From IMG/VR virus record IMGVR_UViG_3300047463_000012, positions 1-35,447 of that record: 35,447 bases of DNA; one strand, given 5' to 3'. The notes under the pieces are model-generated. The model was not told the DNA's origin and made no database searches. It worked only from the letters and a program-made list of their open reading frames with translations. Source of the stretch: a virus. This document shows, piece after piece, positions 2,134-18,607 of the stretch; positions within the stretch are counted from its first letter, which is position 1, and each line of letters opens with the position of its first letter. The translations under genes and the position numbers were made by a program.

Positions 2134-5100
2134 TTAGTCCCTATCCATTAAGTACGGACGGTATCTCTTACTTACTACGAGGCCGCGATCAGCTATATCA
2201 GCATCGGTCATTTTACGTTTAACTGATTGGTTCAGTGTTTGATTTGTAATTGGATTCATGGGGTATTTGTCGTTAAACTTATCAATCTCATCCCTGATAC
2301 TGTCTTCCTTGTCAAAATCTTCATCCATTACAGCGCGGTCGTACAAGTCGATAAGATGTTTGCGTTCCTGCTCAACTTCAACCTCAATACCTTTACGGGC
2401 AATATTATCTCTGGTTTGCAACGCAATTTCTTGGGGGGTATAGCCGAGCATCTGCGCAGCTATATTACCGATATTAACTTCATCTTTTTCAAACACTTGT
2501 TTACCTGACGGTGTTTTTACACCCTCACTGAAATACCTACGAGCAACAGCTAAATTGCGGATACCTGCGGGAGCAAGAGCTTCAAAAGTCCTTTCGTAAT
2601 CGCCCCTATTCCAGTAATCCCATGCTTTACCCACATTCATAGCCATGCCCGCAGAAGGGCCAAGTAGTTCAATCATATATTGCTGCAATTCCGACGAAGC
2701 TTGAGGGGATTGTTTAATTGCAATATCGCGGAAGAACAGATCGTTCAATGACAGGCTGGAATGCAAGTCGGCGCGTGTAGCCCAACTTGCGGGGCCGTAA
2801 GTAACTATATCGGCAATGGCTTTGCTATTGAAAGTCTGTTTCAACCATTCATGGAACCACAGGTCTTTATTTTTCCGTAACAGTTTATCTTCGTCGTCGT
2901 CATCAAGGTGCCCAAACATAGCGGCCATCTCAATTGCAGCCGACACAAGCCACGGCATACCAGCAACACCAGCAAAAGTACCAACCATACCTAACATACC
3001 GGTGAGGCGAATCTTGGCGGCTTTAGCCATAGCACGTGCGGTATCGCGTTCCTCCGGGGTGAGATTTTTATCAAACTGTAGGGCATAGTAATTTGCAATT
3101 ATGTCGTAAGCGCTTTTACCCATATAAAACATCATTTCAATTGGGAAACGCTTAAACTGCATAATAACTTTAAGCCCCTTATGCTGCATAAATCCGGGGG
3201 CGTTAGCTTTACCGTAGTTCCCCAAGGCACGTATAGATATATCCCATGCTTTCTGAATTGCTTCTTCATGGGTATCGCCTTCACCCCTTGCTAATTTATA
3301 CGACGACATAGCAGTAGTTTCACGGGATACTTTTTCCATTGAATGAAACAGTCCAGCCGACATTTGATTGGCGAACGATAAAACCTTCCCACCAATTCCC
3401 GATTTCCTTTTTGCTATAGCATCCGACGTATTACGCAACCCCGGCATAAAATCCATAGACAGAGTAGAGTCAAAAGCATTCATAAACTCAAGCTGTTCGT
3501 ATGCACGGCGCAGGTCAAAAGCATTTTTTTGATCATCTGGGACTTTGTCACGCAAGTTAGCCAACACCTTAAACAAATCCATGTTGTCCCGGTCGTATAT
3601 GGACAGTTCTTCTTTCTGGTGTTGTTTTACAGCTTTGCGTACAATTTCTTCCGCTTCAGCAAATATGTTCTCAAATTTGGGAACAACCCTATCGTACGTT
3701 GGAAATGTAACCGCTCCATTATTCCAACTAATACCAGACTTAGTAATTGAACCGATGGTTCTAGTTAGTTCAGAAGTTATTTTTGTATTACTAGATTTAG
3801 TAAACTGCGCGGACATTTCCGGCAGTGCAATTGTAGGCACACTCAATAGCTGGTTCAATGCCGATTTCGGTGCCGATAGATAGTAATAAAAACTAATGTT
3901 TGTAACACCATTTACCAGTCTGGCAAAAGGGTCGTTGGGGTCTTCGGGACGAAGCATGTTGTCTATGCGGTTCCGCAACGACTCTATAACAATAGCCAGT
4001 TGATTTTGGTTAGGCATTCCCTTTATGGCTTCTCTGGCCGAATCAACCGCGTTCAACGCCGCCGTTGAATATTTCATACGTGCCAACTGCCGTGATGAGT
4101 GGTATGTAAAGTTAGCAAAATTCCTATATGCGTCAGGGCTGTAACCCGCCGTACCTTTACGCGGCAAGAAGTGTTTGCGCAATGACATCTCTGGCAGCAG
4201 TTCCAAATACGCCGAGTAGATGTCTTTCATAAGTTCAGCACGATCACCCTTGATGTCGGCTTCGTCTACGAGCTTGATAACTTCCTTGATAAACGTGCTA
4301 CCCTTTTGTATCGTGTCCATTACTTGGTTTATGCCGTAACCAGACTCGATATTCTCCACCCCCATTTGTTTATAGGCTTTGAGTTTCTTAGCTTGTTCAT
4401 ATGGAGTTTCCGACATATCAAAAACGTAGTCGGGGTCAGTTTTCTTACCAATACGAATCCAATACTCCCCACGACGAACTAAGGGTACATAGGGTTCAAT
4501 TTTACCCTCACGTTCAAACTGCAAACGGATGCCCGCCATAGTCCGTCTTTTTGTAGCTTCCCACGCAGCTTTGGCATTTTTGGCCGCTACCGGTGTCATT
4601 TCAGAAAAATCAGGTCTTTCACCAAAAGAGCTTTCCACACGATTTAACAGATAAGATAGAGTCAAATCTCTGCGACCGTCATAAAACTTTATGATGTCTT
4701 TATATAGTTTTTGTGCCCCATTGATCTTACCAAGTTCCGTCCATGCCTCCGCAATTACGCTATTCTTATTACGACCTTCTTGGGTAGAAGCATCAGCCTC
4801 TACTATGGTTGAAGCGTGAAGTACCTCATGCAGAAACTTTGCGCCAGATGGATTGGTTGCCAGCAAATTAGTCCACGGCACAAGAGTCTTATCACCCTCC
4901 TTCAACATTGTTTGGAAGGCACCGTCCATCATCATGATATTGTCAACCGCGTCCGATATACTACGGATTTCACCACCAAACATCTGTTTTAAGTGATGCG
5001 GAGTAGTTGTATACGCAAGAGCACGGGTAAAGGCATCTTTGCTGCTGGAATTAAATGCTGTTTTCAGCACCTCGGCTATCGGCCCGACACTGCGGGCTTT

Positions 5101-8100
5101 CAATCCTTCACTTGCGGCATAAGCTACATCCTGCCAAACGCTCGTACCCACATTAAGCCCCGCGCCGAATTTAGGCGGCACGGCATTTTTCATATGCTCG
5201 GCGTCGTCCCTAATGGTCTGCTTTACCTTCAAAACTTCCTGTTCGGTAGGCAGCACGTTACGAGGCACAGTCGGCGACACCGACAGGATTTCACTTATGA
5301 TTTTATCTATCTTGTCGTATTGATTTTTGGGCCTACCAACAAAACCAAAAGCCTTGCGTATTGCGTCAACAATCCGATCCCAAGCGCTTCTAATCATGCC
5401 TTTAGGTTTGCCCAACGGCATAGCCCGCAGTAAATCTTGGAAGTCTTCATTGCCGACAAATTCAGCAGTAAATTCTTGCAACGATTTTGCAGCGTACTTA
5501 CCTTCGTAGGTATCTTTAATCTGCGGCTCTAATGCGGTATATATAGCTTGCAGTTCTTTAGTAAGAGGATGTTTCGGGTCTTGAACTACGTGGTAGAGCG
5601 CTGCATGAGTAGCTTCGTGCAGTAATGTATGTTCATCCAGATTTTGCGGGTCAATAATTATTCTGTCGCTTTTAGGGTAATACAGTCCCGCTGCGTCTTC
5701 TTCACCCAGCAATCTTGTAGGAAGTATCTCAACCGTAGTTTTATCCAGCACATCCAAAACTTTACGCGCATATGTTCTTACAATAGGGTTTGATCCCGTA
5801 TTAGCAAGGATGGCAATTGCAACTTTGAGATTATTCTGGCGCAGGTTATCTATTACCGGGCGCGACAGTTTTATGCTGCCGACTTTACTATCCCCAGTAA
5901 GTGCATAATTATCTTTAGGTTTCTTCTTACGAGTTTGTTTTTCCGGTGCTATGTCTTTTAGTTCTGCCCTAAGTTCATTCAAGACGCGGTTTTTGTTTTC
6001 CATTGCGTCTTCAATATCAGCTATATCGTCTCCAATATCAGCTTGCTCATCTAGGGTTTTGGCAGCTTTTTGCTTGTCTTGAGCTTGTTTGAGTTGATAA
6101 TCAAACGCGGATAGTTCGTTTTCAAGCTTTTGAATTTTTCCTTTAAGCTGTGTCTCTTTATTAGTTTGTGTGCGGCTACGGATTTTTTGCAAATCTTTAC
6201 GCGCTGAATCCAATACATCAGCAGGCAAATTAAGCTTGGCAAGTTGTTTTATAGCCGTGCGACGTTCTTTACTTTTTGTAGCCGATTCGCCTGTAGAAGC
6301 GGTTATTTCTTCTGCCATGTCTACAAGATATTTGATATGGTCGAGCGCAGACGCTGGGTTATTTGCAGCAACTGCTTGTTTTATTGTATTTACCGAATCA
6401 TTTAGATAGTCAAGGTCTTCGGCCTCAGGAGCTTCGGTCTTGGGCGCTTTTTTCGGTTTTTCTTTTGGCGCTTCGGTCTTAGGCGCTTCGGTCTTAGGCG
6501 CTTCGGTCTTAGGTTCTTCTTTTGGCGGCTCTACAATAGGTTCCGCACCGAGTTCACCAAGTTTAGTTCTTAATTGTTCAACCAGTGCCGCCTGATATTC
6601 AGCAGTAGGGGCTTTGTTTCTCCGACCCGGTGTTATACCAAGATCACGCAGTGCGTCTCTTAGATCAGTTACAAACTTACGCTCACGAAGAATCTTAGAC
6701 GTGCCGCTATCGTACATCCCAACCAAAACCTGCGCTTTCTGCGCGGGAGTGCGTATACCTTCTTCTAATGCAGGACGCTCCAATTCTTTTTTGCGTATAT
6801 CAATAATTTCTTTTTGCGCAGCATTGTAGGAGTCATTTGCAGCTTTCAGCTTTTTTCTGGCTAAAATAAGTTTTGGATCGTCATAAGCTAAAGCACCTTC
6901 GGCTTTATCAAACGCTTTTTGTGCGGCATTAAGTTTTTTACTGGCGGCAAGAAAATTTTTAGTTGCTTCAAGAAATTTATCTCTTTCTTCTAATGCAGGA
7001 CGCTCGTTTCCTTCTCCCTCAACAGCCCCCGCAGCAGGCTCGACAGCAGTTCCCACTCCGGTAGCCCTAGCATCAACAGTTCCTTCTCCAGCGGGCGGCG
7101 CTGATGGTACAGACTCAGAAACGCCTTCTCCAGCAGCGGGTTGTCCAGTTGCTCCAGCAGGTGCTGGTTCGGTAACAACAGGTCTTGCAGCGACATTAGC
7201 AGCCTCCTCCTCGTTTTGTTTATCAGCGGCTCTTTGTTCCGCAATTACTTCTTTTGCTTTATTTAGGGCTTCCTCTTCTGGAATCCCACTATCCATAAAT
7301 TGTTGAGCTAATTCACGTACTTCAACATCACGTACTTCTTCGGGGGTAGCCGTCACACCCGCTTGTTTCATCTCAGCAGCAGTAGCCATATCAGCAAGGC
7401 GTGTAGCTTCTGCCTCACGAGCACGAGCAGCCAAGTCTCCAGTAGGCGCAGTCTGTTCAATCAACTGATCAAGCGCAGACTTAGGTTCAGCCACACCAGC
7501 TTTACCGCCTAAGCCACCAAGTCCCCCACCAATCCCGCCAAGCCCTATACCGCCGACTAAGCCAAGACCAGCAGCAGTGCCGACCCCTTGCATGAGTTGT
7601 CTAGTTGGGTCGGCGGCAGAAACTTCAAGGTTAGCAAATGCCTGTCCACCACCTTCCTCCAACATTTCCGGTACTGCTTCACCCAGCGCACCTTTTACAG
7701 CGCCAGTAAACAAACCAGTTTTGGGGGCTTTACCAATCAATGCTTTTTCAAGCGTGGTTCCGCCCGGCAGACGCTGCGCCAATACAGATGTAGCACCCGC
7801 TTCAAATGCAGCACGGCGACCGATAGTTAGGGCTTGTTGGTGCGCATCTTGGTCAGATAGACCTTGTTTCTTGTAGGCATCAAAGGCGTCTTTATACGCA
7901 TCTGAACCAATGTCTGTACCTTGCATTAGCGCACCGACACCGACTGCGGCACCTACACCGGTTCTAGTAGCTGCTTTTTCTACCCCCGCTTTGGCAGCGT
8001 CTGCAAATAATTTTGCATATCCAAGTTCTACGCCTTTGGCCGCATACCTTCCTGCACCAGCAGGGAGGATCATATTTGGTATTTGTTCAGCAAGAAACGT

Positions 8101-8511
8101 AGACAACAAAGCCGGATCGGTTATGGTTTCTCCGATAGCGGTACCAAATTCACTAAGCACACCTTTTTCAGCGGCTTCTTGTATTTTTTGTGCCCGAGCA
8201 GCTTCTCTGGCTTTTAGCCCTTCAGATTTTTTGGCCTCAAAATACTTTTCTACATCTTTACCAAATCCCTCTACCGGCCCGGTTTCTTGAGAAATACCGG
8301 CGAGCCTACTTAACTGCCCCGGAAACTGCGCTAGCTTACCCGCACCAGCACCCAATGCAACGAGAGGATCAGTTACAGCTTCTAAGTAATTACGTTCTTT
8401 TTGGGTTGGTGCGGGGGCTTGGTATTTATTGAACCGGCGTAGCAGTTCAGTTTGCGTAATATCGTCAGGTACCCCCGTAACAAGAGTACCATCAGGCATT
8501 CTTACATCCAT
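2134..8511 (-). CDS. Giant internal virion / DNA-ejection protein (gp16-like position) with HExxH metallopeptidase motif
   Basis: This 2125-residue protein starts with a conserved phage N-terminus (MPDGT...TGVPDDIT). A hydrophobic Gly-rich stretch lies around 310-340, a charged coiled-coil region around 510-590, TEAPK tandem repeats around 665-695, and more coiled coil to about 850. HEATH at 965-969 is followed about 50 residues later by QEFTAEF, consistent with a zinc metallopeptidase. The long C-terminal half ends with membrane-like segments near 1835-1860 and an acidic DDDDED run. As the last and largest late gene, after GNAT and 904-aa virion proteins, it sits where T7 gp16 sits; T7 gp16 is ejected and spans the envelope. 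A GGAG box 6 nt upstream supports the start. Virion ejection is inferred from size, position and composition; no lysozyme-like transglycosylase was recognised. Confidence 0.75.
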   Translation of the reverse strand: MDVRMPDGTLVTGVPDDITQTELLRRFNKYQAPAPTQKERNYLEAVTDPLVALGAGAGKLAQFPGQLSRLAGISQETGPVEGFGKDVEKYFEAKKSEGLKAREAARAQKIQEAAEKGVLSEFGTAIGETITDPALLSTFLAEQIPNMILPAGAGRYAAKGVELGYAKLFADAAKAGVEKAATRTGVGAAVGVGALMQGTDIGSDAYKDAFDAYKKQGLSDQDAHQQALTIGRRAAFEAGATSVLAQRLPGGTTLEKALIGKAPKTGLFTGAVKGALGEAVPEMLEEGGGQAFANLEVSAADPTRQLMQGVGTAAGLGLVGGIGLGGIGGGLGGLGGKAGVAEPKSALDQLIEQTAPTGDLAARAREAEATRLADMATAAEMKQAGVTATPEEVRDVEVRELAQQFMDSGIPEEEALNKAKEVIAEQRAADKQNEEEAANVAARPVVTEPAPAGATGQPAAGEGVSESVPSAPPAGEGTVDARATGVGTAVEPAAGAVEGEGNERPALEERDKFLEATKNFLAASKKLNAAQKAFDKAEGALAYDDPKLILARKKLKAANDSYNAAQKEIIDIRKKELERPALEEGIRTPAQKAQVLVGMYDSGTSKILRERKFVTDLRDALRDLGITPGRRNKAPTAEYQAALVEQLRTKLGELGAEPIVEPPKEEPKTEAPKTEAPKTEAPKEKPKKAPKTEAPEAEDLDYLNDSVNTIKQAVAANNPASALDHIKYLVDMAEEITASTGESATKSKERRTAIKQLAKLNLPADVLDSARKDLQKIRSRTQTNKETQLKGKIQKLENELSAFDYQLKQAQDKQKAAKTLDEQADIGDDIADIEDAMENKNRVLNELRAELKDIAPEKQTRKKKPKDNYALTGDSKVGSIKLSRPVIDNLRQNNLKVAIAILANTGSNPIVRTYARKVLDVLDKTTVEILPTRLLGEEDAAGLYYPKSDRIIIDPQNLDEHTLLHEATHAALYHVVQDPKHPLTKELQAIYTALEPQIKDTYEGKYAAKSLQEFTAEFVGNEDFQDLLRAMPLGKPKGMIRSAWDRIVDAIRKAFGFVGRPKNQYDKIDKIISEILSVSPTVPRNVLPTEQEVLKVKQTIRDDAEHMKNAVPPKFGAGLNVGTSVWQDVAYAASEGLKARSVGPIAEVLKTAFNSSSKDAFTRALAYTTTPHHLKQMFGGEIRSISDAVDNIMMMDGAFQTMLKEGDKTLVPWTNLLATNPSGAKFLHEVLHASTIVEADASTQEGRNKNSVIAEAWTELGKINGAQKLYKDIIKFYDGRRDLTLSYLLNRVESSFGERPDFSEMTPVAAKNAKAAWEATKRRTMAGIRLQFEREGKIEPYVPLVRRGEYWIRIGKKTDPDYVFDMSETPYEQAKKLKAYKQMGVENIESGYGINQVMDTIQKGSTFIKEVIKLVDEADIKGDRAELMKDIYSAYLELLPEMSLRKHFLPRKGTAGYSPDAYRNFANFTYHSSRQLARMKYSTAALNAVDSAREAIKGMPNQNQLAIVIESLRNRIDNMLRPEDPNDPFARLVNGVTNISFYYYLSAPKSALNQLLSVPTIALPEMSAQFTKSSNTKITSELTRTIGSITKSGISWNNGAVTFPTYDRVVPKFENIFAEAEEIVRKAVKQHQKEELSIYDRDNMDLFKVLANLRDKVPDDQKNAFDLRRAYEQLEFMNAFDSTLSMDFMPGLRNTSDAIAKRKSGIGGKVLSFANQMSAGLFHSMEKVSRETTAMSSYKLARGEGDTHEEAIQKAWDISIRALGNYGKANAPGFMQHKGLKVIMQFKRFPIEMMFYMGKSAYDIIANYYALQFDKNLTPEERDTARAMAKAAKIRLTGMLGMVGTFAGVAGMPWLVSAAIEMAAMFGHLDDDDEDKLLRKNKDLWFHEWLKQTFNSKAIADIVTYGPASWATRADLHSSLSLNDLFFRDIAIKQSPQASSELQQYMIELLGPSAGMAMNVGKAWDYWNRGDYERTFEALAPAGIRNLAVARRYFSEGVKTPSGKQVFEKDEVNIGNIAAQMLGYTPQEIALQTRDNIARKGIEVEVEQERKHLIDLYDRAVMDEDFDKEDSIRDEIDKFNDKYPMNPITNQTLNQSVKRKMTDADIADRGLVVSKRYRPYLMDRD
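6471..6515 (-). repeat. 15-bp tandem repeat encoding TEAPK units
   Basis: Three tandem 15-bp units (plus-strand CTTCGGTCTTAGGCG, the last with two changes) encode TEAPK repeats. A degenerate fourth copy lies at 6432-6446. The repeat is in frame inside the giant virion protein and forms a flexible Pro/Lys/Glu linker. Copy number could vary by slippage. Confidence 0.85.
6760..7005 (-). repeat. 21-bp perfect direct repeat pair flanking a coiled-coil segment
   Basis: Two identical 21-bp copies lie at 6760-6780 and 6985-7005, 225 bp (75 codons) apart and in frame. Each encodes ERPALEE in the giant virion protein. The Lys/Ala-rich segment between them is coiled-coil-like. The pair is a likely site for in-frame deletion or duplication of this segment. 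Confidence 0.8.
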
Positions 8512-8519
8512 GGTTACTC

Positions 8520-11234
8520 CTATTTAGGAAGCTTGGAGAAGTCTACAACATTACCCCCACCAGCGGAATCGCCTTCAACACCAAACCCATATTCCTGCAT
8601 AATATCTTTCCGCATTTGTGCTTGTTGTTGCGGCGTCCCTTTCCTAAACGCTTTATTACTATCAAGTGCCTTCACAGCCTCTACAGCCATCGCTTTCCTA
8701 GCCGCAATAGTTTGGGCGTCTGCACCGCTGGTTTTACCGGATACGGCATAGAAATTCTTATATTTATCAAGCACGGCAGCTTGTTCTTGTGGTGTTTTGG
8801 CGGCATTAAACTCTTCATACATACGTTGACCCAGATTGAACTGGCCGGATTTAATAGCCGCCTCACGCATACTTGCAATTTTAAGTTGTGTGTCACGTTC
8901 AAGTTGTGCTGTACGTTCCCTAGAAGCAGTTTGCTCTTTCGTATCCAGATGGGTAGCCATGTAATGGAACGCTTGCATTTTGTGTTGGTTTTGGGTTTCA
9001 CGTAGTTTAGAAGATTCCAACGCCCAATTTCTGGCTTCTTTAAATTTACCAGCCTCTTGCGCACGATCCGCAGCAAGCTCGGCACGTTCTGCTTTTTGGC
9101 GTTCACGTTCCGCAGCCCGCATCTCTTTGTTAATTGCAGAAATTTCCTTAGCGGCAAGGCCAAGACCTTCACCAAAGTTTTGAATAGCATAAGGCGATTT
9201 ACCCGCTGCAATTGCAAATCCACCCATAGCCAAAGCAATTAGACGATCTTTATTCCCTTCACCCCGCAACCGCTCACCTTCCGCTTTGTAAAACTCACGG
9301 ATGTCTTTGGCTTGGCTAGGCATCTTTTCGTCCAAAATTTTCATGTAGCCAGCAGCTTGTTGTTCGAGATCATCTTTTGGCTCTGCCGCTATATATTTTT
9401 TGAAGTACTCCGTGACTTCATCATTGGCTGCTGCGGCGGGCTTACTTGTAGTAGTTGTCGGCGTTGCCTGTGCTTGCGAAGCCGTAACAGATTTTTCTTT
9501 TGGCGCTGAAATAGCAGGAGCTTCACCGTAACGGCTACGCAATCTTGCACCTTCATCCCCATAATCAGTTATAGGTTTTGTAGTAGCTGTTTGTGTTGCA
9601 ACAGGTACAGCAGCGGGCAATCCAACACGCGACCACGGGTTCATAGGATCAAAAGCTTGACGCGGCGCTGAAGGGGCTTGTTGTGCAGCTTGTTGTGCGA
9701 TACGTTGACGAAGCATTTCAGAACGGTCATTAACCGCGTAAGAAGCAGGTGTATATCCGGTGACTTCAGCATTTGTTCTATAGTCGCCCTGTGCCACACG
9801 CGCCGGATCAGTAGACCACGGCTGAAGAGTCAATAAACCCGCAACGTCCTTAAGGGCCGCTTTACCCCGCTGCAAGCCTTGACCCAGCCACGACTCACCA
9901 GAAGCCACGTTGTAAGCATCAACATCCCCACCATCATCAAAAGCCACAATCCCGCCGTCAGCGGCGGTGAACATATCTTTTTTTACGGGTAAGGTGGCAA
10001 GTGCTTGTTGCGCCAGATCATCTACTACCGTACGTTGGCTCGTTTCTGCTTTGGGCTTACTAAGTTCTAATAGTGCTAATGCCGTGGGAAGTGGCACCAA
10101 ACCGTGTCTACTAGCCAGCGCTGTAGTAGGATCAACCAAATCAATACCGGGAGCGCCGGTAATCCCACCATTCAAATAATGTTCAGTATCGTCAACGGCC
10201 CCACCTTCCGCATACTTTTTAAGACCACCCGGAACTGAACCGCCTTCTTTACCGAACAAACCTGATTTACCCAGCGCACCCAGACCCAAGCCAAGACCTG
10301 CAATCTGACTGAACATGCTCGGGGTAGCTTGGTATTGTTGTGCCGTGGTAATACCCCCCGTCGGCGTTCCGTGCAGGATGTCCGACATAAAGGCAAGTTG
10401 TTGATAGGGGTAGTTCTGACGGTTCAGGAAGTCCTGATACTGATTTGTAAGTGCTTGTTGTTGAAGTGCCTGTTGTTGGGCACCGGCTTGTTGCTGTGCA
10501 GCATTAATACCCATCTGTTGGCCGTATTGCTGTTGGCCCAGTTGGCCCAGCGTTTGTGCAGCCTGACCAGCAGTTTGAAGACCCTGTAAACCAAGGTTGG
10601 CACCGAACTGTTGAGCTTGTTGTGCCGCATTAAATGCGTTCTGTGACCCCGTAGCCTGAATACCGGCAAGCGTATTCTGGAGGTTCCTTTGCGCCTCAGA
10701 CTCGACCAGACCATGCCGACTACCACCGAACGCGCCTTGTTGCGCAGCACTAGCCCCAATCCCCGGAAGTTGACGCCCGTAATCCATAATGGCTTGTTGC
10801 TTTTGCCAATCTACGACGTTTTGCATATAGGGTGACATAAAGGCTTGCGTGGCAGCGGGGCTAGTCGCCATATTCATATAATCCTGACCAGCACCCAGAC
10901 CACCCAGCCCCGCCATCCCAGCCAAACCAGTAGCCTGTCCCGTTTGCGGCGATACCTGCATATTGGCAATATTTCCGAATGCTTGTTGTTGCATTGGCGT
11001 AAAGCCAGCCAGACGGTCACCGCCGTATGTTTGATAGGGGTTTTGGTTAACATCGGTCAGTGCCTGTGCTTTACCCAGCAGTTGCTCTGAATAGGGCTGT
11101 GCCCATGCCGGAAGGTTGGTCTGTTGTACAGTTTGCGTAGTCGGTGTTTGTGGGGCTTGTTGTCCACCACCTCCGCCGCCGATATAAAGACGGAATGACG
11201 CGCCAGTAAGCAAATTAAGAAGTTTTTTAATCAT
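8520..11234 (-). CDS. Large Gln/Gly/Ala-rich internal virion protein
   Basis: This 904-residue protein has a hydrophobic start, then GGGGGGQQ and a conserved segment with LPAWAQPYSEQLLGKAQ and GDRLAGFTPMQQQAF. A long Gln/Ala-rich stretch runs to about residue 270 and includes many AQQQA runs, followed by GGAVDD/GGG linkers. The C-terminal third (about 590-880) is highly charged and helical, probably coiled coil. Such low-complexity helical proteins beside the adaptor and tail genes of podoviruses are usually internal or ejection proteins, and the position matches T7 gp14/gp15. The start overlaps the GNAT gene stop by ATGA, indicating translational coupling. The stop is followed closely by the GGAG box of the next gene. 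The specific role is inferred from position. Confidence 0.65.
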   Translation of the reverse strand: MIKKLLNLLTGASFRLYIGGGGGGQQAPQTPTTQTVQQTNLPAWAQPYSEQLLGKAQALTDVNQNPYQTYGGDRLAGFTPMQQQAFGNIANMQVSPQTGQATGLAGMAGLGGLGAGQDYMNMATSPAATQAFMSPYMQNVVDWQKQQAIMDYGRQLPGIGASAAQQGAFGGSRHGLVESEAQRNLQNTLAGIQATGSQNAFNAAQQAQQFGANLGLQGLQTAGQAAQTLGQLGQQQYGQQMGINAAQQQAGAQQQALQQQALTNQYQDFLNRQNYPYQQLAFMSDILHGTPTGGITTAQQYQATPSMFSQIAGLGLGLGALGKSGLFGKEGGSVPGGLKKYAEGGAVDDTEHYLNGGITGAPGIDLVDPTTALASRHGLVPLPTALALLELSKPKAETSQRTVVDDLAQQALATLPVKKDMFTAADGGIVAFDDGGDVDAYNVASGESWLGQGLQRGKAALKDVAGLLTLQPWSTDPARVAQGDYRTNAEVTGYTPASYAVNDRSEMLRQRIAQQAAQQAPSAPRQAFDPMNPWSRVGLPAAVPVATQTATTKPITDYGDEGARLRSRYGEAPAISAPKEKSVTASQAQATPTTTTSKPAAAANDEVTEYFKKYIAAEPKDDLEQQAAGYMKILDEKMPSQAKDIREFYKAEGERLRGEGNKDRLIALAMGGFAIAAGKSPYAIQNFGEGLGLAAKEISAINKEMRAAERERQKAERAELAADRAQEAGKFKEARNWALESSKLRETQNQHKMQAFHYMATHLDTKEQTASRERTAQLERDTQLKIASMREAAIKSGQFNLGQRMYEEFNAAKTPQEQAAVLDKYKNFYAVSGKTSGADAQTIAARKAMAVEAVKALDSNKAFRKGTPQQQAQMRKDIMQEYGFGVEGDSAGGGNVVDFSKLPK

Positions 11235-16880: not shown

Positions 16881-17411
16881 CTAAGTCACCATTTGTTCAG
16901 CAAGTTTTTCTACTGTTTCAACGCGGTTAAGCCAGCCTTCCAAAAACTTCTTCTGATCAGGCTTGGCAGCAACGATAGCTTTATAAAAGGCTTCTTTATA
17001 AGCCGACATCTTCTTAATGGTTACTTTAGGCTCGTCCTTGATCGCCGTCAAAGCAGCCAGCGTAGCAGGGCCAATAGCCCCGTCAGCATTAACACCAGCA
17101 ACCGTTTGCAGCATCTTGGCACCACGACCTACCCCGCCATTAACGGCTAGGTCAAACACCATATAATCCACACCAGCAGGCAGAACGTCACAATGGCACA
17201 CATCCCAATACATCTTCTTATAAAAGGGTTTTACTTCAGCTTTGGTCAGCGCCTTCATTTCCCCATCTTGGATAGGGCGTTTAAGATACCCCGCCCACGC
17301 TGCTTTAGTGACTCCCAGATTAGTTTCACCACCGTGATCATGTGGGTCATTGACGTAGCCTCCTTCACTGGCAATTACATGCTCAAACGATTTTTCCCAA
17401 TTCTCAGTCAT
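16881..17411 (-). CDS. Endolysin: GH108-type muramidase
   Basis: This 176-residue protein matches the glycosyl hydrolase 108 muramidase family. The motif SEGGYVNDPHDHGGETNLGVT lies near the N-terminus, with E16 of EGGY as the predicted catalytic acid. A second conserved block is YWDVCHCDVLPAGVDYMVFD, and the C-terminal peptidoglycan-binding part has VAGVNADGAIGPATLAAL. It cleaves the glycan backbone of peptidoglycan at lysis. No signal peptide or transmembrane segment is seen, so release depends on the holin genes just upstream. AAGGAG lies 7 nt before the ATG, and the start overlaps the upstream 73-aa gene by 8 nt. Confidence 0.92.
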   Translation of the reverse strand: MTENWEKSFEHVIASEGGYVNDPHDHGGETNLGVTKAAWAGYLKRPIQDGEMKALTKAEVKPFYKKMYWDVCHCDVLPAGVDYMVFDLAVNGGVGRGAKMLQTVAGVNADGAIGPATLAALTAIKDEPKVTIKKMSAYKEAFYKAIVAAKPDQKKFLEGWLNRVETVEKLAEQMVT

Positions 17412-17625
17412 CTTTAGGCTCCTTGGCCTCGCCTACCTTAATACCCGTAATCAGCCCGATAAACCCACCCACAATAGTCTGGAAAGCAGGGCCAATCACA
17501 TCAAAAACCACCTTGTCGTCCACCGTCGGGTCGAGAATGGCATAGGCGAACATCCCGCACATTGCCGCTACCACAGCCGCCAGAGATAGTGTTGACACCC
17601 CTATACAGAAATCTTTAGTGGTCAT
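17404..17625 (-). CDS. Small two-TM membrane protein, candidate holin or antiholin
   Basis: This 73-residue protein has two predicted transmembrane helices (about 8-30, rich in Ala/Val, and 44-64, IVGGFIGLITGIKV) joined by a short acidic loop and ending in a charged tail (EAKEPKDD). Its start overlaps the 3-TM holin gene by ATGA and its end overlaps the muramidase start by 8 nt. A second membrane protein inside a lysis cassette is commonly an antiholin or a second holin, but no family-specific motif was recognised. Confidence 0.7.
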   Translation of the reverse strand: MTTKDFCIGVSTLSLAAVVAAMCGMFAYAILDPTVDDKVVFDVIGPAFQTIVGGFIGLITGIKVGEAKEPKDD

Positions 17626-18032
17626 TGTTTGCTCCGCATATCCATGATTTTCTCAAGCGTCCGGCCACCAAAATAGAACGACATGATCAACATGCCCCAC
17701 TGACCAAGCAATTCAACGTAGGTCTTGTTGGTATCCATGCCGAAGGCGCTCATCATGGCAAAGGTGAAATACCCGCTGAGAATGGCAATCAGGGTCATCG
17801 GACGGATATTCTTGGACAGCCATGAATCCGAAGCCATGTCCGCTTTGAGCCGGTCGGTCAGATTGTTCTGCTCCAACTCAAACAATTTGGTTTCATTCGC
17901 CATCTTCGCCAGTTCGCCGTCTTGAGCGAGTTTGGCAAGTTCCATCTGTGCTTTAGCTTTGGCTTCGGGGTCGGGCAAAACCTTATCAAGAATCTTACCA
18001 CCAATTTCGAGTAGTCCAGCGAGTGGGAACAT
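17622..18032 (-). CDS. Holin of the 3-TM / GTA-release type
   Basis: This 136-residue protein resembles the Holin_3TM family found in phages and gene transfer agents. It has an N-terminal amphipathic segment (PLAGLLEIGGKILDKVLPDPEAK), a charged helical middle (about 24-70), the conserved SWLSKNIRPMTLI motif leading into a TM helix (about 76-97), and a second TM segment (about 107-122) before a basic end. It would form the membrane lesion that lets the muramidase reach the wall. AGGTGA lies 5 nt before the ATG, overlapping the stop codon of the -1 frame extension of the gene upstream. Confidence 0.85.
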   Translation of the reverse strand: MFPLAGLLEIGGKILDKVLPDPEAKAKAQMELAKLAQDGELAKMANETKLFELEQNNLTDRLKADMASDSWLSKNIRPMTLIAILSGYFTFAMMSAFGMDTNKTYVELLGQWGMLIMSFYFGGRTLEKIMDMRSKQ

Positions 18033-18035
18033 AGA

Positions 18036-18200
18036 TCACCTATACAGTTCTGGGAAAGCGTGTCTGAAGAAAGAAAGAATTTCGTGCATATAAATCACCA
18101 TCACCACCGCTAAATAGACACAACCGATAAAGAGCAGGTAAATGACAACTGCGGTAAAAATAGAAAGAAAGAAGTCTTTGATTGAGTTGATGAAGTCTTC
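18036..18200 (-). CDS. -1 frame extension with transmembrane anchor
   Basis: This is a 54-codon extension read in the -1 frame from the slippery site. It begins EDFINSIKDFFLSIF and contains about 25 continuous hydrophobic residues (TAVVIYLLFIGCVYLAVVMV), then HEILSFFRHAFPELYR. The shifted protein would be 190 residues. The stop is at 18036-18038, 3 nt from the holin ATG, matching the tight packing of this operon, whereas the zero-frame stop leaves a 77-nt hole. It could be made by programmed -1 frameshifting. Alternatively, one A may be missing from the homopolymer in the assembly (A10 would fuse the frames). Confidence 0.7.
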   Translation of the reverse strand, partial: EDFINSIKDFFLSIFTAVVIYLLFIGCVYLAVVMVIYMHEILSFFRHAFPELYR

Positions 18201-18607
18201 TTTTTTTTTATCTTCGCCTGTGCCGCCCTGTTTTCCTCTTTGATTTCCCGTTGCCTTGAATCAATAATGTCTGCCCGTATTTGGCACATCCTCTTATACA
18301 TATCCAGCTTGCCTTGTATGGCAAACATATCCCGCAATTCCCGCTCGGCTATCCGCAGTTCCTCAGCCCGTAACACACAGTCCATCGCAATGCTGGTGGC
18401 TGACTTTTCCTTGTTACGGCGAGGGTCTTTACGGATTGCCTCGGCTTCTTTTGCTGCTGCTTCAACTTCACCCTGCGCGGTAAAAAACGATGACAACTCC
18501 TTACCCATCGAAGCAATATCATGCCCAACGGCAATCGCTTCTTTGATGTAGCCTATCGCGGTTTTAGCACCCGCTACGGCCAGACCTATGGATACGGGGT
18601 CGATCAT
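18110..18607 (-). CDS. Lysis-cassette coiled-coil protein, zero-frame product; -1 frameshift candidate
   Basis: This 165-residue protein starts with a weakly hydrophobic helix (MIDPVSIGLAVAGAKTAIGYIKEAIAVGHD), then a long charged coiled-coil region (about 40-133) rich in Glu/Ala/Lys. At codons 134-136 the mRNA has A9 followed by G, containing the -1 slippery heptamer A AAA AAG. The zero frame then reads a Ser/Thr/Phe-rich tail of 29 residues and stops at 18110. The -1 frame instead gives a typical TM anchor ending just before the holin gene. Podovirus proteins with a similar start (MIDPISIGLA-like) and a C-terminal TM are known to me, which favours the shifted product. The function is unknown; the position suggests lysis or membrane attachment. 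Confidence 0.75.
   Translation of the reverse strand: MIDPVSIGLAVAGAKTAIGYIKEAIAVGHDIASMGKELSSFFTAQGEVEAAAKEAEAIRKDPRRNKEKSATSIAMDCVLRAEELRIAERELRDMFAIQGKLDMYKRMCQIRADIIDSRQREIKEENRAAQAKIKKKKTSSTQSKTSFFLFLPQLSFTCSLSVVSI
18200..18206 (-). promoter_or_regulatory. Putative -1 ribosomal frameshift site A AAA AAG
   Basis: The heptamer is in the correct phase (third base of codon 134 plus codons 135 and 136) within a nine-A run at 18201-18209. A AAA AAG is the classical efficient bacterial -1 slippery sequence, as in dnaX. A weak possible AAGAAG/CTTCTT stem overlaps and follows it. No strong pseudoknot is obvious by eye. Confidence 0.6.

Follow-up and report, generated by a model that had tools for sequence, protein, structure and literature searches.

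Recoding in tailed phages is known mostly from tail-chaperone and capsid genes. In bacteria, the A11 run of the type VI secretion gene tssM gives about 20% of slipped product, and both forms of the protein are needed (PMC4256274). Transcriptional slippage in Shigella spa13/spa32 yields a C-terminally extended product, with an effect on the next gene (reviewed in PMC5009743). Runs of the A9 or T9 length are slippage-prone in many bacteria (PMC1088944).

We analyzed a viral DNA of 35,447 nucleotides (IMG/VR record IMGVR_UViG_3300047463_000012, below called the window), in which such an A9 run interrupts an uncharacterised gene of a widespread environmental family heading lysis cassettes. Judging from its homologs, the tract is genuine: it is a site of conserved recoding by a net shift of -1, and no artifact of sequencing. 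The explanation that best accounts for the evidence as a whole, and that we hold to be highly probable, is that a membrane anchor encoded in the -1 frame behind the conserved A9 is reached, most likely, by polymerase slippage, ribosomal slippage probably adding to it.

One gene in two frames

The features of the locus are collected in Table 1. The zero frame ends at 18112-18110, and its ORF and the ATG of the next gene bear out the gap of 77 nt that an earlier note on this DNA had described as unfilled. The A9 tract is the sole A/T run of at least 8 in the whole 35 kb window, and the slippery heptamer that the same note had placed in it holds in coordinates and in phase. Read from 18200, the -1 frame encodes EDFINSIKDFFLSIFTAVVIYLLFIGCVYLAVVMVIYMHEILSFFRHAFPELYR and stops with the TGA at 18038-18036, 3 nt ahead of the holin ATG and within the AGGTGA ribosome site; the 54 codons, the transmembrane (TM) segment, and the overlap of the stop with the ribosome site are all as first reported.

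Table 1. Coordinates of the recoded gene, its slip site and the adjoining lysis genes in the window
Feature	Position	Strand	Remarks
Zero-frame ORF, 165 aa	18110..18607	minus	Residues 1-136, conserved helical N-terminal domain; then 29 unconserved out-of-frame residues
A9 tract (T9 on the plus strand), slip site	18201..18209	minus	Followed by G at 18200
Heptamer A AAA AAG	18200..18206	minus	Correct X XXY YYZ phase for -1 slippage
-1 frame tail, 54 codons and stop	18036..18200	minus	Strong TM segment VVIYLLFIGCVYLAVVMVI; kept in L001-L008
AGGTGA ribosome site overlapping the -1 stop, then ATG of the next gene (18032-18030)	18030..18041	minus	
3TM holin, next gene	17622..18032	minus	PF11351 GTA_holin_3TM, phrog_3427
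73-aa membrane protein	17404..17625	minus	Weak holin match (phrog_785)
Endolysin	16881..17411	minus	Glycosyl hydrolase 108 and PG_binding_3

The fused reading matches PHROG 32327 (E=1.3e-7) with residues 1-158 of its 190; on passing from the zero frame to the fused reading, the match grows from 116 to 141 of the 152 profile positions and from 29.4 to 32.6 bits. Neither reading of the gene matches holin families, which the neighboring genes do match, and a fold search against PDB gave nothing pointing to function, a sequence search of PDB being likewise without result. The TM segment of the -1 frame scores about -3.6 kcal/mol on a position-independent biological hydrophobicity scale, the values of which were entered from general knowledge, and 2.95 on the Kyte-Doolittle scale. 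The zero-frame tail is mildly hydrophobic by Kyte-Doolittle (1.73) and scores +3.6 on the same biological scale, so that the short form is probably a non-membrane protein.

Structure models divide the gene at the same place. In the AF2 model of L009, a single-frame relative (see below), one helix spans residues 101-185 and continues through the TM segment. The last helix of the single-sequence model of the zero-frame product from the window ends at residue 136, which is the slip codon; pLDDT falls below 50 for residues 139-165, which are modelled as disordered. A Lys-rich segment (KIKKK) precedes the C-terminal TM segment, which by the positive-inside rule suggests that the helical domain is cytoplasmic and the anchor C-terminal. 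An i-spanin of the Rz-like kind, with an N-terminal TM segment or signal anchor and a periplasmic coiled coil, was considered and set aside, as the TM segment here is C-terminal and the helical part is predicted to be cytoplasmic. The likely products are a full-length tail-anchored protein and a truncated form.

Conservation of the tract and the single-frame sister family

With the N-terminal part of the protein as query, IMG/VR yielded nine close relatives. Eight of them (L001-L008, from eight contigs and eight datasets) break at the same place and at a run of exactly A9, L003 and L004 being identical over the recoded gene. In all eight, a similar TM tail is encoded in the -1 frame and ends in ...FP-LYR/HR where the next gene has its ribosome site. 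The zero-frame tail is conserved neither in sequence nor in length, the ORFs measuring 498, 501 or 543 nt. The ninth relative, L009, has one uninterrupted frame, no A run, and 63% identity over the full length; in a tree of the N-terminal part, its placements inside and outside the shifted clade are both acceptable (p-AU 0.46). A profile scan with the TM tail and three further scans found no additional members of the shifted clade, and no relative was found by tblastn of GenBank phages or in two scans of bacterial genomes.

Seven divergent sequences, which align without gaps, were used for analyses of variable sites and invariant stretches. Before the tract, the variable sites number 38, 20 and 117 at zero-frame codon positions 1, 2 and 3; after the tract, the same index classes hold 14, 47 and 26, the second class being the third position of the -1 frame. 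This passage of variability from third positions of the zero frame to those of the -1 frame is highly significant (Fisher p=3.4e-13), and the best breakpoint lies in a broad optimum around the tract. In pairs with estimable dS, dN of the tail is well below dS (e.g., 0.04/0.40 and 0.10/0.89). By these measures, purifying selection acts on the -1 tail.

Among the seven sequences, just one stretch of at least 8 nt in the gene is invariant, TAAAAAAAAAGAA; codon shuffles attained an invariant stretch of 13 nt in about 1% of trials, and the measure taken by itself is moderate evidence. The codon ahead of the run is ATA, GTA, CTA or TTA, with a first base that varies and a third base that is always A, and NTA makes up only a quarter of the Ile, Val and Leu codons in the window. 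Nine A's are retained in L003 and L004 too, there in another codon phase. Throughout 58 kb of clade loci, no A/T run other than the tract reaches 9.

One member of the clade has a composite history. The N-terminal part of L005 (gene at 3001-3572) is near that of L006 (dN 0.025, vs 0.146 to the window), and its -1 tail is 93% identical to that of the window, which places an exchange point close to the A9 tract; from these distances, L005 looks like a recombinant.

Distant relatives, at about 32-40% identity, are single-frame. Among 77 complete loci of this sister family, 76 encode the protein in one frame with a C-terminal TM segment, none has an A run of at least 8, and 318 kb of sister-family loci contain no A/T run of at least 9. 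In the fused relatives, the stop is usually found overlapping with the next ATG or a short distance from it. The sole exception, L242 (gene from 2001), breaks elsewhere and without a homopolymer, probably by an ordinary sporadic indel or assembly error. At another locus, L163, a putative membrane protein of 76 aa (3367-3597; no Pfam match) lies immediately upstream of the recoded gene and overlaps its start by 4 nt.

The earlier note had proposed that homologs be compared for a conserved slippery site or for a fused frame, and both were found: A9 in 8/8 shifted relatives, with A AAA AAG in 7/7 phase-2 sequences, and a fused gene in L009 and the sister loci. The slipped, anchored product is then the normal protein of the family and, on this comparative evidence, the A9 site makes conditional a membrane anchor that is normally obligatory. 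The same protein, encoded in one frame by close and distant relatives, serves as a natural control; in this clade, the true product will escape gene callers.

Polymerase, ribosome and other readings

Since any A9 contains an in-phase heptamer, the sequence alone does not separate polymerase from ribosome. Reading in the -1 frame is equivalent to turning A9 into A10, so that the direction of the shift fits one inserted base. At E. coli A/T runs single-base insertions predominate and deletions are rare (PMC5574713). We found no conserved downstream structure more stable than shuffled sequence (every z-score is within 2 of zero) and no conserved SD-like motif at the stimulatory distance of 6-17 nt upstream. 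That exactly A9 is kept in two codon phases, and that no stimulators are conserved, speaks at least as strongly for RNA polymerase, and we consider its slippage on the tract slightly more probable than not; it is quite possible that polymerase and ribosome slip together. A search of six records for a T7-type RNA polymerase gave no match, and neither did its control.

On the reading that we prefer, this would be a four-helix protein, the last helix of which normally continues straight into a C-terminal membrane anchor, and in this phage clade the anchor would sit in the -1 frame behind the conserved run of nine A. The likeliest course is that slippage of RNA polymerase on A9 lengthens a fraction of the transcripts by one A; ordinary translation of the A10 transcripts would give the full-length anchored protein, to which slippage of the ribosome at the in-phase A AAA AAG probably contributes. 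The unslipped message would give a truncated form with an unconserved tail of roughly 29-46 residues, its translation in the window stopping 77 nt short of the holin gene.

A possible reading, which we entertain tentatively, is that the ribosome alone makes a programmed -1 frameshift at A AAA AAG (A AAA AAA in L003 and L004), with no polymerase slippage. The heptamer is in phase in every phase-2 sequence and the G after it is invariant; some tailed-phage shifts work without stimulators (PMC5009743), and in E. coli few heptamers shift as readily as A AAA AAG when a stimulator is present (PMC4066793). Heptamers without stimulators, however, shift at only 2-10x a 0.055% background in E. coli (PMC4066793), and the A's upstream of the heptamer, which it does not need, are invariant, including at a synonymous third position. 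Of the programmed ribosomal frameshift put forward in the earlier note, the conserved recoding, the net -1 shift and the added TM anchor stand; with no conserved stimulators, the ribosome becomes only one of the mechanisms that may produce them.

It is also conceivable, albeit unlikely, that the break is a tolerated, near-neutral defect, such that slippage acts as the "savior" of a gene broken once in the clade and the short form has no function. The varied zero-frame tail, modelled as disordered, speaks for it. A single inserted or deleted base would nevertheless join the frames, yet the exact A9 persists in two placements although synonymous divergence is saturated, and its retention despite so easy a fix suggests that the ratio of products, or the conditionality itself, is selected.

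That one A is simply missing from the assembly of a single-frame gene, which the earlier note held out as the alternative, would agree with the single-frame distant relatives and with the sporadic break in L242, but it is refuted by the finding of exactly A9 and the same break in eight independent contigs from eight IMG datasets, the L242 break moreover having no A run, and we give it hardly any credence. Just as improbable is independent initiation of the TM tail as a small membrane-protein gene of its own: conservation of the tail and its stop at the next ribosome site would fit, but the tail is fused in relatives, 6/8 sequences lack any ATG, GTG or TTG ahead of the TM segment in the -1 frame, and the other two have only a TTG, inside the TM region.

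The lysis cassette and comparison with known systems

As the earlier note had it, the gene lies beside holin and muramidase genes, now matched to PF11351 and to a glycosyl hydrolase 108 (GH108) endolysin. The recoded gene heads the lysis cassette in the window and in several relatives, and it stays in place while the holin-like and endolysin genes downstream are exchanged (e.g., in L003 and L007): close homologs of the GH108 endolysin of the window are found in L001, L002, L005 and L006, and a T4-type lysozyme is found in L007 (by Pfam) and in L003 (by sequence similarity). Its place at the head of lysis cassettes makes a link of the gene to lysis plausible, and from this position the anchored protein may be a membrane-bound partner or regulator of lysis, with a possible role in lysis timing. 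Only ribosomes reading the slipped frame end beside the holin start, so that any coupling to the holin could hinge on slippage. We regard as doubtful, though worth stating, the proposal that A9 is a lysis timer, in which the slip rate would set the output of both the anchored protein and the translationally coupled holin, and the short form would compete with or titrate the long one. Elsewhere in the window, a protein of 2125 aa (2134-8511) has a DarB-like antirestriction match (phrog_10089) and is adjoined by a DNA ejection protein (8520-11234).

The sequence family itself is PHROG 32327 (function not assigned), of which the relatives seen in this analysis outside the clade are single-frame, whereas this clade is split by A9. 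The lysis gene of MS2 is similar by analogy only, in that a reading-frame event feeds ribosomes to a lysis start; MS2 is an RNA phage, and the event there is out-of-frame termination and restart. Lambda G/GT and other tailed-phage -1 frameshifts likewise occur in dsDNA phages and shift by a net -1 close to where the first ORF ends, but serve a tail assembly chaperone; the present gene belongs to a lysis operon and has a TM tail and an A9. In Shigella spa13/spa32, as here, the end of the C-terminal extension overlaps the start of the next gene, although the gene is a bacterial secretion gene and the protein unrelated. A likeness may also be drawn to tssM of Citrobacter rodentium and Yersinia pseudotuberculosis, where an A run near the gene end likewise lets slippage restore a C-terminal part that is in frame in relatives, and where both forms are required (PMC4256274). 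The run there is A11 and not A9, and slippage restores a TssJ-binding domain and not a TM anchor, the present case being known from sequence alone. The addition made by the phage gene is that a homopolymer would be able to make an obligatory membrane anchor conditional; the site belongs to an already known kind of recoding, of which this well-conserved case is new.
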